In this document: piece after piece, positions 1 through 5,042 of the stretch
Numbering within the stretch: position 1 is the first letter of the stretch
Layout: each line of letters opens with the position of its first letter
Source: Candidatus Cloacimonadota bacterium
Lineage (GTDB): Bacteria; Cloacimonadota; Cloacimonadia; Cloacimonadales; TCS61
Assembly: GCA_018654125.1 (NCBI GenBank)
Contig: JABIME010000121.1
Span: 1-5,042, forward strand
DNA: 5,042 nucleotides
Direction: 5' to 3'
Translations under genes and position numbers: made by a program
The notes under the pieces: model-generated
Seen by the model: only the letters and a program-made list of their open reading frames with translations
Database searches by the model: none
Told to the model about the DNA's origin: nothing

Positions 1-1020
1 AAAACCACGATTATCTTTTTTGATCTTTATCCCGGGAGAATAGTTTTTTCCTATCTGGCTTATTTGAATTTCATAGAAAGAAACATCCATTTGATCATCA
101 AAAAAAGTAGCAGTATAAATATTCAAAAGTTCATTCTTAAAAATTCTGCTATCCATCACCCAGCAAATTCCCAACCACTCCTTTTCATTATTCAACGTAT
201 GCATTACATCTAATCCGGAACGAATAAATTTGTTAAAATGAAGTCCTCCAGATATTCGCGACAATTTAGAGCTGACTAGATCCAGTTCTAAGCCAGTATT
301 TACAGACCAATTCTTCTTGGAATTGAAAGCTATCTTGAACTGATTTGTTTCCAATTTGTGCAAAGTGTTTTTAATAGAAATTTTTCTACCCTTGTATCTT
401 AATTCAAAATCTCCAAACATATGTTTCTGAAATTCACCATGATGCACAAAGCCGAATTTATAATAATTGTATTTCATTCGCCAGTTGTATTTATACTTTT
501 CGGATAGTGTTTTATAAGTAGAAAATGAGCCTGAAAAATTACTGATATAATAATAAATATTAGAATCAACAAACTGTGTTTTTTCACCATCCAATTCTGC
601 TCTTATAAATCTGGAATTGAATAAAAGATTACTGGAAATTAATAAGGAATTTGTGAACAAAAAATTCTGTAGTTTATTATCTTCACTAAAATTTCCTGCA
701 AAATTGCCGCTAAAACGTTTTCCTTGTTTAGATAATGAGAAATAATAATCACTCTTCTCATCAGTCTGATTCCATAAAGCCTGACTATTCCAAGTATTAT
801 AATTTAGAAGTATTCCATTTCTGCTTTCATTTTTCTCTTCACTATTGTGTTGAAGCGCTATTGTTCCATTATCAAAAAATCTATCGAAAGCAAATTGATA
901 ATCTATATCATTTTTTAATTCTTCACGATCCGCATAAATGTGATATTGTCGGAAATTTATTTCGGCTGATGTGAAATGATGGTCTCTAAAATAACTTTCT
1001 TGTAGGAAATAGAATGTGTC
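1..1020 (-). other. Region of the lyase gene encoding a putative C-terminal beta-barrel (residues about 913-1252)
   Basis: The translated segment is a run of roughly ten to twelve stretches of 10-20 residues in which polar and hydrophobic or aromatic residues alternate, for example NIYYYISNFSGSFSTY, KYNWRMKYNYYKFGFVHH and DVSFYEIQISQIG. They are separated by short polar turns rich in N, D, G, K and E. There is no long hydrophobic helix. This is the pattern of transmembrane strands in outer-membrane barrels rather than of a globular carbohydrate-binding module. The segment continues beyond the left edge, so the terminal strand and any C-terminal aromatic residue cannot be seen. An extended soluble beta-sheet domain remains possible. 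Confidence 0.5.
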
Positions 1021-3756
1021 TTCAATCTCTAATCTATGAAAATTAGTTGAAAGTCCTTTATCTGTAATGTGGCCTTCCTCGAAATAAGATACTTGTTTGC
1101 CAGCTATTTCCCGTTCTAATTCAAAAGATTGAGGTAGATTGATTTTGAAGCTTTCTGAAGAACTCCAAGCCGCATTAACCAATCCTGCAGTGATTCCATA
1201 AATATTTTTCAAAGGATAATTAATTAGAGAATCAACTTCGTTTCTCATGGCTTTACTAGTTAGCATGGTAATCTCATTTCGTAACTGATTCTTCTCAAAA
1301 TTATTCATTAATTCAATGTCATAGTTTGGGTCTTGTGAAAAATTCAAGCTATTTAGAATTGGATAATTGGGTTTAAATTTGTCAGCAGTGTAAATCTTAT
1401 TCCTAGATGGATGAAAATCAAATACTCCACTTTCGGTTATTACGAACCTGCAAATAGAATCATCAAATTCGACTATTTTATTATTGAAGCTCATAAATCC
1501 TTGATTATTTGTTGGGAAGAATTCTATGAAATTGTTTTTCTTCTGCTTAGAAGAGATGTGTCCGAACCAATTTTCATAGGATAAATGTATCGTTATATCA
1601 ATTGGTTTATCTGCTCTGAATATTACTTCATCATCTATAGTGAAATATGTAACACTATTTGCTGATAAATATTCTACTGCATTAAACTCATTTTGATGAA
1701 AAACTGCAATATTAGCATCACTAGAAACATTCTCACAATTCCAAACGGAATCAGCTAGTACAATGAAATCCTTCCAATTATTAGCACGATCAATAATTAC
1801 TCTTGCATTAATATTACTGTTAGAAAAGGCTTCAGTTACATCAGCTTGAACTTCTTCTTCACCAACCATATTTGGAATGAAAACTGAAATAAATTTATTC
1901 TGCTTACTTGGTGGTAGTTTTGCTTCAAGAATTTGATGTTCATAGTTAAAAATGCGATTTGTGTGCAATCCTGTTTTTGTTGTGAATAATAGTGAATTAT
2001 CATTTTCAGAAATAAATTCAGCATCAAGAATATAATTATCCTGTGTCCATCTTGCACTAGTTGATCTAACTTTTTCAAAAATACCAAGCCCATGCCAGGG
2101 GATAGAAAATCTTTTCTTTCTGTTAGAAATAAATTCATCCACTACAATAAAATACCTCTGATTTGCAAACCAGATTGAGCGAGTAAGATCTGCTCCTCTA
2201 TAATTAGATCTAACCTGAGAAGCTGATATTTGTTCCGATCCAAAATAATTGCCCATTTCAGCGTCTAGATCATCTCCCCAAACAGGATTTAGGTTAGGCC
2301 CGAGCCCATTAACTAATGGAATATTGTGAGCCTGAGCAGAAGTAAACCAACTTCTATCAAGATCATAAGGACCAATTATTCCGTATCCACTATCGATAAG
2401 AAAATCTTTATTATAAGCTGATAGAGTAATTGCTCCCGGTTCAAAATGATCATGATGAGAATAGTTCTTTCTACCTGGTTCACCCAGTAAAAGTGCGTAG
2501 ATATCCCTATCTCCTCGGAATATGGACATACCACCATCAGGATAGAATGTTGCCGGATCATAGTTCGGTACTTGAGGAAAAGTTCTATCATCAAAACCAC
2601 AGAAAGCATCAATAAACATCAGGTCATTATCTCTAAAATTTTCTGCATTTTTTTCAAATAGATAAAACAGCTCATGCTCATAATTTGTTAAACCAGAGCC
2701 TAAAGGTTGAAATGGGAAGAACATGCTGTATGCATCATCAAAGAGCGGAATTGTTCCATCAGGTTTTTCCATATCAATAAGCCAGCGAGTGAACTTTTTA
2801 ATACGAGGTGAATTCAGAATGTTAGTATTAGTTATGTTTTTAATATAATGAGCCAAAGGGAAGATTATTGATGCAACGAATCTTCCATAGTTAGCTCCTT
2901 CTCGATAAGACCCATCTACATCGATCATTGCTAAACCATATTGTAACTCTCTTATCGCATCATTAAAGTACTTTTTGCATCTTGAATTGTCGATTACTAA
3001 AGTAACTGTAGCAACTCCCGCAGCAATTTCTATTATGTGATTATTTTTTGGAATTCCAATTCCTGACGATATTTCAACTTTATTTAAGTTACATGGGAAT
3101 TTTCTGAAGTTCCTGTGATGCTGTTCAACCTGTTTCATCATTTTATTTTCAATGATCTCACGTTGCTGTTCGGTAAGTTCCCAATAGATCAGATCATAAG
3201 TAACTGCAAAATTTCTGAGTGCTTGTGCAGCTCTCATCCAATCTCCCCAACCAACTCTATCATTTTGTCCCTCAGGTGATACAGGTGGAAGAGTATCACC
3301 GATATTTAGTAGTGCTGCTTTGGCAGTCTCAAGAAAATCATTATCAAAAGTTAGAAAATAAGCAAACGCATTTGCTTTGGCTCCCTCACTTCTCAATAAT
3401 TCATAGAGTAAAGGTGATGTAAGATCATGATTGTTTGTTAATGCTCGCTCGATTATATTTTCTCCCCAGCTTTTGTAGGGTTCTCGATAAAATCTGGATC
3501 GGATCAAATGGGCATTCTCTTTTTTGAAGAGTAGAGATGGATGCTCTTTTGTATTTGGGTATTTGGGTTGTGGAATTGCAACACTGTTTAATGGGAAGAA
3601 CTCATCAAATGGTGTCTCTTTATAATTAGCTTTTAATATCCCTTTCAAGAAATTCTGCGGAATTTCTAAAAAAATATTATCATCCGATGCATATAAATTA
3701 TTGATGCAGATAATTAACAAAAGTAAAAGGATAAACTTTTTGCAACAATTAATCAC
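1..3756 (-). CDS. Secreted heparinase II/III-family polysaccharide lyase with C-terminal putative outer-membrane beta-barrel (3' end outside window)
   Basis: The frame is open for all 1252 codons and leaves the window at base 1. The GTG start follows GGAG by 10 bases, and an in-frame TAG lies just upstream. Residues 1-23 form a signal peptide: KK at 6-7, hydrophobic core 8-18, likely cleavage after LYA(23). About residues 70-385 resemble the alpha/alpha toroid of heparinase II/III and alginate lyases: HPSLLF at 72-77, NNH at 238-240, DGSYREGANY at 281-290 and DGTIPLFDD at 333-341. About residues 400-780 resemble the beta-sandwich domain, with YPDGG (405-409), HHDH (434-437), DSG (455-457) and AHN (476-478). 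By analogy with heparinase II, N239/H240, a tyrosine (Y290 or Y284) and H435 are candidate catalytic residues, and H437, D455 and H477 a candidate metal site. The family cleaves uronic-acid polysaccharides by beta-elimination; the substrate cannot be told. Relatives usually end near 650-800 residues. Here a linker (about 790-910) leads into amphipathic strands (about 913-1252) resembling an outer-membrane barrel. The lyase call is firm; the barrel is inference. Confidence 0.88.
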   Translation of the reverse strand, partial: MINCCKKFILLLLLIICINNLYASDDNIFLEIPQNFLKGILKANYKETPFDEFFPLNSVAIPQPKYPNTKEHPSLLFKKENAHLIRSRFYREPYKSWGENIIERALTNNHDLTSPLLYELLRSEGAKANAFAYFLTFDNDFLETAKAALLNIGDTLPPVSPEGQNDRVGWGDWMRAAQALRNFAVTYDLIYWELTEQQREIIENKMMKQVEQHHRNFRKFPCNLNKVEISSGIGIPKNNHIIEIAAGVATVTLVIDNSRCKKYFNDAIRELQYGLAMIDVDGSYREGANYGRFVASIIFPLAHYIKNITNTNILNSPRIKKFTRWLIDMEKPDGTIPLFDDAYSMFFPFQPLGSGLTNYEHELFYLFEKNAENFRDNDLMFIDAFCGFDDRTFPQVPNYDPATFYPDGGMSIFRGDRDIYALLLGEPGRKNYSHHDHFEPGAITLSAYNKDFLIDSGYGIIGPYDLDRSWFTSAQAHNIPLVNGLGPNLNPVWGDDLDAEMGNYFGSEQISASQVRSNYRGADLTRSIWFANQRYFIVVDEFISNRKKRFSIPWHGLGIFEKVRSTSARWTQDNYILDAEFISENDNSLLFTTKTGLHTNRIFNYEHQILEAKLPPSKQNKFISVFIPNMVGEEEVQADVTEAFSNSNINARVIIDRANNWKDFIVLADSVWNCENVSSDANIAVFHQNEFNAVEYLSANSVTYFTIDDEVIFRADKPIDITIHLSYENWFGHISSKQKKNNFIEFFPTNNQGFMSFNNKIVEFDDSICRFVITESGVFDFHPSRNKIYTADKFKPNYPILNSLNFSQDPNYDIELMNNFEKNQLRNEITMLTSKAMRNEVDSLINYPLKNIYGITAGLVNAAWSSSESFKINLPQSFELEREIAGKQVSYFEEGHITDKGLSTNFHRLEIEDTFYFLQESYFRDHHFTSAEINFRQYHIYADREELKNDIDYQFAFDRFFDNGTIALQHNSEEKNESRNGILLNYNTWNSQALWNQTDEKSDYYFSLSKQGKRFSGNFAGNFSEDNKLQNFLFTNSLLISSNLLFNSRFIRAELDGEKTQFVDSNIYYYISNFSGSFSTYKTLSEKYKYNWRMKYNYYKFGFVHHGEFQKHMFGDFELRYKGRKISIKNTLHKLETNQFKIAFNSKKNWSVNTGLELDLVSSKLSRISGGLHFNKFIRSGLDVMHTLNNEKEWLGICWVMDSRIFKNELLNIYTATFFDDQMDVSFYEIQISQIGKNYSPGIKIKKDNRGF
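3687..3756 (-). other. Signal peptide coding segment of the lyase
   Basis: Codons 1-23 encode a short basic n-region (MINCCKK), an uninterrupted hydrophobic core of Phe, Ile, Leu and Cys, and a c-region ending LYA before SDD. This fits Sec export and signal peptidase I. Cys17 is preceded by L-I-I, which lacks the small residue needed at -1 of a lipobox, so a lipoprotein is unlikely. The signal begins at the GTG codon and no in-frame ATG lies nearby, so it also supports that start. Confidence 0.8.
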
Positions 3757-3766
3757 AATTTGTAAT

Positions 3767-3770
3767 CTCC
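3767..3770 (-). promoter_or_regulatory. Ribosome binding site of the lyase gene
   Basis: On the minus strand GGAG lies 10 bases before the GTG start at 3756. It is the only Shine-Dalgarno-like motif near the beginning of the open frame and supports use of a non-ATG start. Confidence 0.6.
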
Positions 3771-3844
3771 GAATCTAAAACTGATTTCTCAAAATCATTT
3801 AATGCATTCGCTGTAAAACAAACTTTCAATACTAATGCCTTCCT

Positions 3845-4068: not shown

Positions 4069-4096
4069 TTGACATAATTAATTATGAAAATAATTT
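4069..4096 (+). promoter_or_regulatory. Promoter of the DUF2089-DUF4097 operon
   Basis: A perfect TTGACA (4069-4074) is followed after 16 bases by TAATTT (4091-4096), a weak -10 box. Read another way, TTTG (4068-4071) lies exactly 19 bases before TAATTTAT, close to the Bacteroidota-type TTTG/TAnnTTTG arrangement. The sequence does not decide which sigma type applies. Either reading puts the transcription start near 4103, just before the ribosome binding site. The leader would be short, and the earlier in-frame ATG at 4084 would not be transcribed. Confidence 0.55.
4073..4086. promoter_or_regulatory. 14-base palindrome at the promoter, candidate operator
   Basis: CATAATTAATTATG is a perfect inverted repeat. 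Its left end overlaps the last two bases of the TTGACA box and the rest lies in the spacer before the -10 box. The half-site TTATG recurs at 4095-4099, overlapping the -10. A dimeric repressor here would block RNA polymerase. The DUF2089 protein encoded directly downstream has a helix-turn-helix and is an obvious candidate ligand, but that link is inference. Confidence 0.4.
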
Positions 4097-4108
4097 ATGT
4101 CACAGGTC

Positions 4109-4114
4109 AGGAGG
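4109..4114 (+). promoter_or_regulatory. Ribosome binding site fixing the DUF2089 start
   Basis: A full AGGAGG lies five bases before the ATG at 4120. It decides between this ATG and the in-frame ATG at 4084, which has no such site and sits between the promoter boxes. The 4120 start also places the first zinc-ribbon cysteine at residue 8, as is usual for this family. Confidence 0.9.
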
Positions 4115-4119
4115 AAAAA

Positions 4120-4485
4120 ATGAATAAAAGATTGAAGCAATGCCCCGTATGTAATTCCAATTTGGATATAGTTGAATATCATTGTTCAAGTTGTGATACA
4201 AGTATAAAAGGGAAATTTGGAATTGGAGATCTATCTTTATTAACAGCTACCCAACAGGAATTTGCAAAAACATTCCTATGTTGTAGCGGTAATATTAAGG
4301 AAGTAGAAAAAGCGTTGAATATTTCATATCCAACAGTTAAGAACAGATTAGCAGAGATTATTAATACTTTGTGTTCAAAAGAGCAAAAAGTTGAAGATGT
4401 CAGATCTGATGAGATATTAAATGAAATTGAAAATGGAAATCTATCAGTAGAAGAAGCACTTTCCAAATTAAAAAAGAGAGGATAA
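4120..4485 (+). CDS. DUF2089-family protein: zinc ribbon, helix-turn-helix and SHOCT-like C-terminal hairpin
   Basis: This 121-residue protein matches the usual DUF2089 layout. An N-terminal zinc ribbon has CPVC at 8-11 and CSSC at 22-25, a complete four-cysteine metal site. A helical part follows (about 38-84), with a helix-turn-helix around 57-80 containing ISYPTVKNRL (68-77), the family's most recognisable stretch. The end (about 95-119) has the pattern ILNEIENGNLSVEEALSKL, a short helical hairpin of the SHOCT-like type that Pfam also places at the start of LiaX/YvlB-type proteins. No signal peptide or membrane segment is seen, so it should be cytoplasmic. The likely role is DNA-binding regulation or assembly with the partner encoded two bases downstream; neither is proven. 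It begins a probable operon with its own promoter and a palindrome that could serve autoregulation. Family assignment is confident; function is inferred. Confidence 0.9.
   Translation: MNKRLKQCPVCNSNLDIVEYHCSSCDTSIKGKFGIGDLSLLTATQQEFAKTFLCCSGNIKEVEKALNISYPTVKNRLAEIINTLCSKEQKVEDVRSDEILNEIENGNLSVEEALSKLKKRG
4476..4481 (+). promoter_or_regulatory. Ribosome binding site of the DUF4097-type gene
   Basis: GAGAGG lies six bases before the ATG at 4488 and inside the last codons of the preceding gene. Only two bases separate the stop and start codons. This arrangement favours translational coupling of the two proteins. Confidence 0.7.
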
Positions 4486-4487
4486 TA

Positions 4488-5042
4488 ATGAAAAAGCTAG
4501 AGTTGAATTATAAATTTGATGTGAAAGATGAGCTCAAATTGGAATTTGCATCAGAAAATTATGGAGTGAGTATTGCAGGAAGTGATGAAAGTACTGCTAA
4601 AATAGAAATAACGGCAAAACAGGAAGAGATCTTCGAAGACGATCTAGAAAAGGTTGTTCAGTGTAAGTATGATGAAAAAAAGAATATTCTTACTATAAAA
4701 ACAGATGAAAAGGATAGTAACTTTAGAAATATCAAAATTAATGTACTGGTTCCCGAGAAGACAAATATTAATGCTAAAACTGAAAACGCTCCGATCTCGA
4801 TTATCAAATTGAATGGTTCACATACTATCACCAATGAAAATGGTCCTGTTAGTATTGCAAATAATGAAGGAGACCTTCAGATTATTTCTGAAAATGGACC
4901 AGTAGCTATAAAAGAAAACACAGGAAATATTGATCTTACTTTTGAGAACAGTCCATTATCACTGAAAAGCAGTATTGGTAAAATTAAAATACAAACAGAG
5001 AATAGTCCAATAAAATTAGGAAATTGTAAGGGAGAGCTTACC
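4488..5042 (+). CDS. DUF4097-type beta-solenoid protein (3' end outside window)
   Basis: The first 185 residues are visible and the frame is open at the right edge. It begins with MKKLELNYKF and has no hydrophobic signal or membrane segment, so it appears cytoplasmic unless anchored later. Residues 1-95 are beta-rich and end with KINVLVPEKTNINAKTEN, the entry typical of DUF4097 proteins. From residue 98 a repeat of exactly 18 residues follows, with E-N-[AGS]-P at 99, 117, 135, 153 and 171 and alternating hydrophobic residues, as in a right-handed beta-helix. Known relatives include YvlB and LiaX of Bacillota; LiaX takes part in the response to membrane-active peptides. Those proteins carry an N-terminal SHOCT-like hairpin that is absent here but present at the end of the upstream gene product. 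A shared function with that product is therefore likely but inferred. Distant beta-helix adhesins are an alternative relation. Confidence 0.82.
   Translation, partial: MKKLELNYKFDVKDELKLEFASENYGVSIAGSDESTAKIEITAKQEEIFEDDLEKVVQCKYDEKKNILTIKTDEKDSNFRNIKINVLVPEKTNINAKTENAPISIIKLNGSHTITNENGPVSIANNEGDLQIISENGPVAIKENTGNIDLTFENSPLSLKSSIGKIKIQTENSPIKLGNCKGELT
4779..5042 (+). repeat. 18-residue (54-base) tandem coding repeat of the beta-solenoid
   Basis: Five successive units start at residues 98, 116, 134, 152 and 170, with no insertion or deletion; the fifth is cut by the window edge. Each contains the turn E-N-[AGS]-P followed by a hydrophobic-x-hydrophobic strand (ISI, VSI, VAI, LSL, IKL) and a second strand about ten residues later (HTI, LQI, IDL, IKI). 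At DNA level the units share a GAAAAY-like core but differ at many synonymous positions. The repeat is therefore old and kept at protein level rather than a recent duplication. Confidence 0.85.

Follow-up and report, generated by a model that had tools for sequence, protein, structure and literature searches.

A PL39-like lyase joined to a putative outer-membrane beta-barrel in a predicted fusion protein of Candidatus Cloacimonadota and relatives

Does the long reading frame in this stretch of Candidatus Cloacimonadota DNA encode a polysaccharide lyase that carries its own outer-membrane barrel, and what would such a protein do? Within the window (the whole stretch analysed, 5,042 nucleotides), the minus strand of positions 1-3756 forms a single open frame of 1252 residues, which begins with a GTG start at 3756 and exits the window at its left edge. 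Comparison with the 99% identical protein P0002, whose chain ends in ...GEGYVSWEF, indicates that 11 residues are lost beyond this edge. The frame was divided as follows:

1..3756, minus strand: lyase-barrel fusion gene, 1252 of about 1263 codons; the final ~11 codons lie left of the window
3688..3756, minus strand: signal-peptide-like segment, residues 1-23; KK, then FILLLLLIICINNLYA, read by eye
1405..3567, minus strand: PL39-like lyase, residues 64-784; helical toroid plus beta domains
3037..3042, minus strand: Asn239-His240, aligned to Dp0100 Asn186-His187; 45/45 rows
2887..2889, minus strand: Tyr290, aligned to Dp0100 Tyr239, the predicted catalytic acid; 45/45 rows
2734..2736, minus strand: Asp341, aligned to Dp0100 Asp288 of the His-Asp-His-Mn tetrad; 45/45 rows
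2077..2553, minus strand: Pfam Hepar_II_III_C, residues 402-560; E 3.6e-15
2446..2454, minus strand: His435 and His437, aligned to Dp0100 His405 (base) and His407 (metal); 45/45 and 44/45 rows
1168..1359, minus strand: helical connector, residues 800-863; 27-residue helix, conserved NEI motif; helices 737-800 in model numbering
1..1140, minus strand: C-terminal beta-meander, putative outer-membrane barrel, residue 873 to the window edge; 29 predicted strands minus the end

The original prediction placed the end of the lyase fold near residue 780 and noted some 470 visible residues of open frame beyond it; both points were borne out, with the fold ending at about 780-784, helices at ~800-863, and strands from about 873. 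At its core was the fusion of a lyase of the heparinase II/III type to an outer-membrane beta-barrel, for which the conserved architecture, confident models, strand amphipathicity beyond shuffles, C-terminal phenylalanine and membrane-barrel structure matches all speak, with a barrel that is putatively closed. The further suggestion of a degradation device whose products travel through the barrel is no more than a possibility. The N-terminal segment may be a signal peptide; a hydrophobic 11-mer lies close to the N-terminus in 38 of 45 family proteins by a lenient test run without a control, and for at least P0006 and P0034 among the seven remaining proteins the locus shows an extended frame.

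A search with the frame aligned 28 proteins over 88-100% of its length, 27 of them over at least 95%; the frame is therefore neither a chance opening nor an artefact of joined genes. P0002 counts among the 28 and is listed as the window's own cluster. The profile of these 28 rows, used to score the 7995 candidates that share most words, gave 47 matches, of which 45 (P0002-P0046) have the full architecture; the two others, P0047 and P0048, are weak matches (E 2.6e-5 and 2.1e-4) that lack it. The source organisms of full-architecture members are named Candidatus Cloacimonetes, candidate division KSB1, or simply 'bacterium'. Among the 124 genomes in the Cloacimonadota set, 12 contain a match to the C-terminal profile, or 11 when G034 (E 3.5e-4, a 284-residue frame containing a stop) is dropped; in the KSB1 set two of 82 do. 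Assembly error or accidentally joined genes, the explanation that would have undone the original prediction, was rejected on the strength of these 11/124 and 2/82 genomes and by the occurrence of the architecture in 44 proteins besides P0002. Three of the 11 Cloacimonadota frames are cut by contig ends (G072, G079, G080). In two relatives the frame is interrupted, through either decay or assembly error: it is broken in G102 (locus L005, 10001-13638) near the lyase-barrel junction, into 773 and 405 residues, and it contains an internal stop in G081 (locus L008, 3015-6845). Among the titles and abstract starts listed by searches of the open-licence PMC literature for the fusion or its group, none describes the fusion.

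The lyase assignment rests on fold and active site together. Apart from Hepar_II_III_C, Pfam reported for the window protein just a weak DUF5118 match that falls within the signal segment. The closest solved relative is an alginate lyase, Dp0100 of Defluviitalea phaphyphila (PL39; 6jp4/6jpn/6jph), with which the fusion shares its lyase fold, including the PL39 feature of DUF4962 plus a Hepar_II_III fold, at an identity of about 20-22%. All six mapped active-site residues are alike, and the catalytic Asn/His, Tyr acid, His base and Asp-His-metal residues of PL39 are in place; the sole deviation among the aligned proteins is P0046 at H437. Tyr290, like Tyr239 of Dp0100, presumably acts as the catalytic acid. 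The active-site roles in PL39 follow in part the excerpted text of PMC12915356 and PMC10056287, the former for the His-Asp-His-Mn tetrad of Dp0100, and in part general background. The window protein, a candidate for PL39, has the fold and active-site features of that family that were compared; its predicted activity is the cleavage of acidic polysaccharides. A uronate epimerase, or an enzyme otherwise modified on the lyase fold, is very improbable: human dermatan sulfate epimerase 1 does occur among the fold and sequence matches, but it ranks far below Dp0100 in sequence (1.5e-08 vs 2e-59), and the residues of the Dp0100 tetrad are retained. The statement that known members of this lyase family are soluble proteins of 650-800 residues fails for Dp0100, which has 1799 residues; unlike the fusion, it continues after its catalytic domain with FN3 and carbohydrate-binding modules and not with a barrel (PMC9971899).

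The structure prediction proposed originally, one that includes the part left of the window, was obtained with AlphaFold2 for P0002 residues 64-1263 in window numbering (1200 residues, 45 rows; window residue = model residue + 63), with a mean pLDDT of 86.4 and a pTM of 0.89. In model numbering, a helical toroid and beta domains extend to ~720, followed by helices at 737-800 and a meander of 29 strands at 810-1197; the high pTM suggests a fixed arrangement of lyase and barrel. A second model, limited to the last 476 residues of P0034, a relative from KSB1, likewise has 29 strands (pLDDT 88.1, pTM 0.64), in one-to-one register with those of P0002; it is not independent of the first because most alignment rows are common to both. 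Across 44 members, the C-terminal domain keeps a steady length of 386-414 residues at a mean pairwise identity of 24% (lyase, 42%). Scans of the window protein and six members against Pfam, and of four proteins against NCBIfam, gave this domain no family name, and P0046 had no Pfam match whatever. Sequence matches to GFP (from the search with the single protein) and to VDAC (C-terminal profile, E 0.1-0.5) were at chance level and were not used.

Whether this meander is a membrane barrel or a soluble or lipid-binding amphipathic sheet, with a groove of the LptA/TamB or ApoB kind, has to be weighed on several features. Strand alternation is strong (1.04 vs 0.58 +/- 0.08 in shuffles, reached by 0/2000), yet alternation by itself is blind to inside versus outside; the turns in the P0002 model measure 2-5 residues on both sides, without long outer loops, and ApoB100 is among the structure matches, all of which would suit a soluble sheet. 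The C-terminal residue, however, is Phe in 41 of 44 proteins (one Tyr, one Trp and one Leu; the truncated P0017 was left out), Ser, Asn, Arg, Glu and Thr abound on the polar strand face, and 49 of the 50 VIA matches listed are membrane barrels by title. Matches of the region include VDAC, TOM40, LptD, FimD, TonB receptors and AlgE; Foldseek TM-scores to barrels reach 0.48 at most, the VIA matches have rmsd values of 13.8-19.6, and the model of the C-terminal part by itself has a pTM of just 0.64, all of which count against a barrel; a viral structure library gave low TM-scores only. On balance the soluble or lipid-binding sheet seems quite unlikely, and the C-terminal domain is treated below as a putative barrel.

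A free-standing version of this barrel was sought and rejected: the C-terminal profile gave five shorter proteins, none of which looks free-standing by eye. P0049-P0051 start inside the gene, and P0053 is without its N-terminal part. P0052 combines an N-terminal PF08843 domain, which we take to be AbiEii, with the helical and barrel region of the fusion, and ends early on a 5.9 kb contig; it is probably a recombination or assembly chimera.

On which side of the membrane would the lyase lie? The C-terminus of an outer-membrane barrel is usually periplasmic, and 29 strands would therefore put the lyase outside; since one strand more or fewer would flip its side, the strand count alone does not fix the orientation. 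In both models the loops that follow even-numbered strands exceed the others in length (permutation p 0.025 and 0.035), which also points outward, but the bias is not significant family-wide (p 0.13); because of this, and because the two models share alignment rows, loop parity carries little weight. The enzyme-barrel protein PlpD, with its periplasmic enzyme (PMC11116518), speaks against a lyase outside. An autotransporter-like arrangement, in which the barrel does no more than export the lyase and hold it on the cell surface while the helix passes through the lumen, would agree with the order of N-terminal enzyme, connector with its 27-residue helix, and C-terminal barrel-like domain ending mostly in Phe; the 29 predicted strands, against 12 in classical (type Va) autotransporters, make it doubtful, as does the analogous fusion protein PlpD, whose enzyme lies in the periplasm according to the excerpt of PMC11116518. 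We regard as equally doubtful a single-chain, lyase-gated pore, an odd-stranded (29) barrel with the lyase on the surface, the C-terminus in the periplasm and the long helix running through the lumen; if true, bacteria would have a barrel of odd parity like that of VDAC, and this barrel would either export the enzyme attached to it or link the passage of a polymer with its cutting. The helical connector is possibly a lumen plug or a linker.

The reading that we favour, tentatively and at somewhat less than an even chance, is that of a PL39-like lyase that a large C-terminal barrel of its own anchors in the outer membrane and that trims or clears the cell's own envelope or capsule polysaccharide. 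The predicted chain is secreted; its lyase fold with His/Tyr-plus-metal residues leads, through the helical connector, into 29 meandering strands of the outer-membrane type. The barrel would sit in the outer membrane, the connector helices would fill or line its lumen, and the lyase would dock on one barrel mouth; a uronic-acid-containing polysaccharide would be cut, by beta-elimination, on its way through or out of the outer membrane. Lyase and porin would be welded together for trimming or clearing and not for foraging.

Foraging, with an outward lyase that cuts environmental alginate-like polymers and a barrel that takes up the oligosaccharides, is unlikely, though the most probable of the alternatives. 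In its favour are the alginate lyase as closest solved relative and both indications, strand parity and loop lengths, of a lyase outside; against it stands the genomic context. In 10 of 13 fusion genomes Hepar_II_III_C has no match apart from the fusion itself, and neither a SusD-like protein nor a further lyase family occurs among 20 chosen neighbouring proteins. KDPG aldolase catalyses the final reaction in the usual pathway for unsaturated uronates. In a count that covers this aldolase alone, in genomes that come without completeness figures, both KSB1-set genomes exceeded the cut-off, but none of the 11 fusion genomes from Cloacimonadota did, two of them showing matches that fall short of it; this absence provides a weak argument against nutritional use of uronates. 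It is a phylum trait and not a fusion trait, since KDPG aldolase occurs in 2/124 of the whole Cloacimonadota set. PF03721, which includes uronate-forming dehydrogenases, is present in 13/13 fusion genomes and, like the missing aldolase, favours trimming, but it is near-universal (13/14 controls) and so not fusion-specific either. One enriched Cloacimonadota member uses propionate and has a limited number of carbohydrate-active enzymes, as described in the excerpt of PMC11129491. Taking genome content, neighbourhoods and this member together, the balance tips somewhat towards trimming of the cell's own polysaccharide at the outer membrane and away from foraging. Counting against the trimming role, polysaccharide export PF02563 was found in only 5 of 13 fusion genomes, and clear polysaccharide genes in the scanned neighbourhoods were limited to L011, where the fusion lies beside a glycosyltransferase, a polysaccharide deacetylase and an LPG_synthase_TM protein.

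The neighbourhood scan comprised the 20 chosen proteins and covered L008, L010 and other loci in part; the majority of these proteins have no connection with polysaccharides, four have no family, and L008 contributes an FkbM methyltransferase. Divergent to the fusion, positions 4084-5042 (plus strand) of the window encode a DUF2089 zinc-ribbon/HTH regulator and an adjoining gene with repeated NENGP-like motifs; the pair recurs with a third, SHOCT-like gene in L001, L002, L004, L005 and L006 (by ORF starts, with Pfam on L001), and the set was not seen in L007, L008, L010 and L011. Directly upstream of the lyase start, at about 3760-3835 (minus strand), a frame reads LKVCFTANALNDFEKSVLDSEITN by eye and resembles the start of an intact glyoxalase-family gene at the same place in L001 and L004; it is possibly a decayed remnant of such a gene, and tblastn did not report it. 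In L006, a patatin plus POTRA protein of PlpD architecture lies at 17312-19453 (minus strand), about 3.5 kb downstream of the fusion.

To our knowledge, fusions of an enzyme with a barrel are few. PlpD, a patatin enzyme with an Omp85 barrel, resembles the fusion in having a secreted enzyme N-terminal to a barrel in one chain, as the available part of PMC11116518 describes it, and differs in being a phospholipase with a POTRA domain and a 16-strand barrel; Pfam found neither a POTRA nor a patatin domain in the window protein at E up to 1. In the alginate system of Pseudomonas, the uronate lyase AlgL and the export porin AlgE serve one polymer (PMC9734138, in excerpt), but as two separate proteins; AlgE is represented by its structure match, and no sequence-family match to it was found. 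LptD, VDAC, TOM40 and FimD share with the fusion a long antiparallel meander, which in them forms a membrane barrel, and differ in strand number and, by the rmsd values above, in curvature. By analogy, the fusion would resemble in its working a union of AlgL and AlgE in a single polypeptide, or a PlpD equipped with a different enzyme. It unites a polysaccharide lyase fold with a barrel-like domain that, in the scans described above, matched no named family and was not found on its own. Outer-membrane barrels span 8-36 strands (PMC11116518, in excerpt), and if this one is closed, its predicted size falls near the upper end. The lyase-barrel arrangement is common to dozens of relatives in little-known bacteria, and the fusion would offer a compact system for studying how the cutting of a polymer may be linked to its passage across the outer membrane, in phyla of which few members have been cultured.
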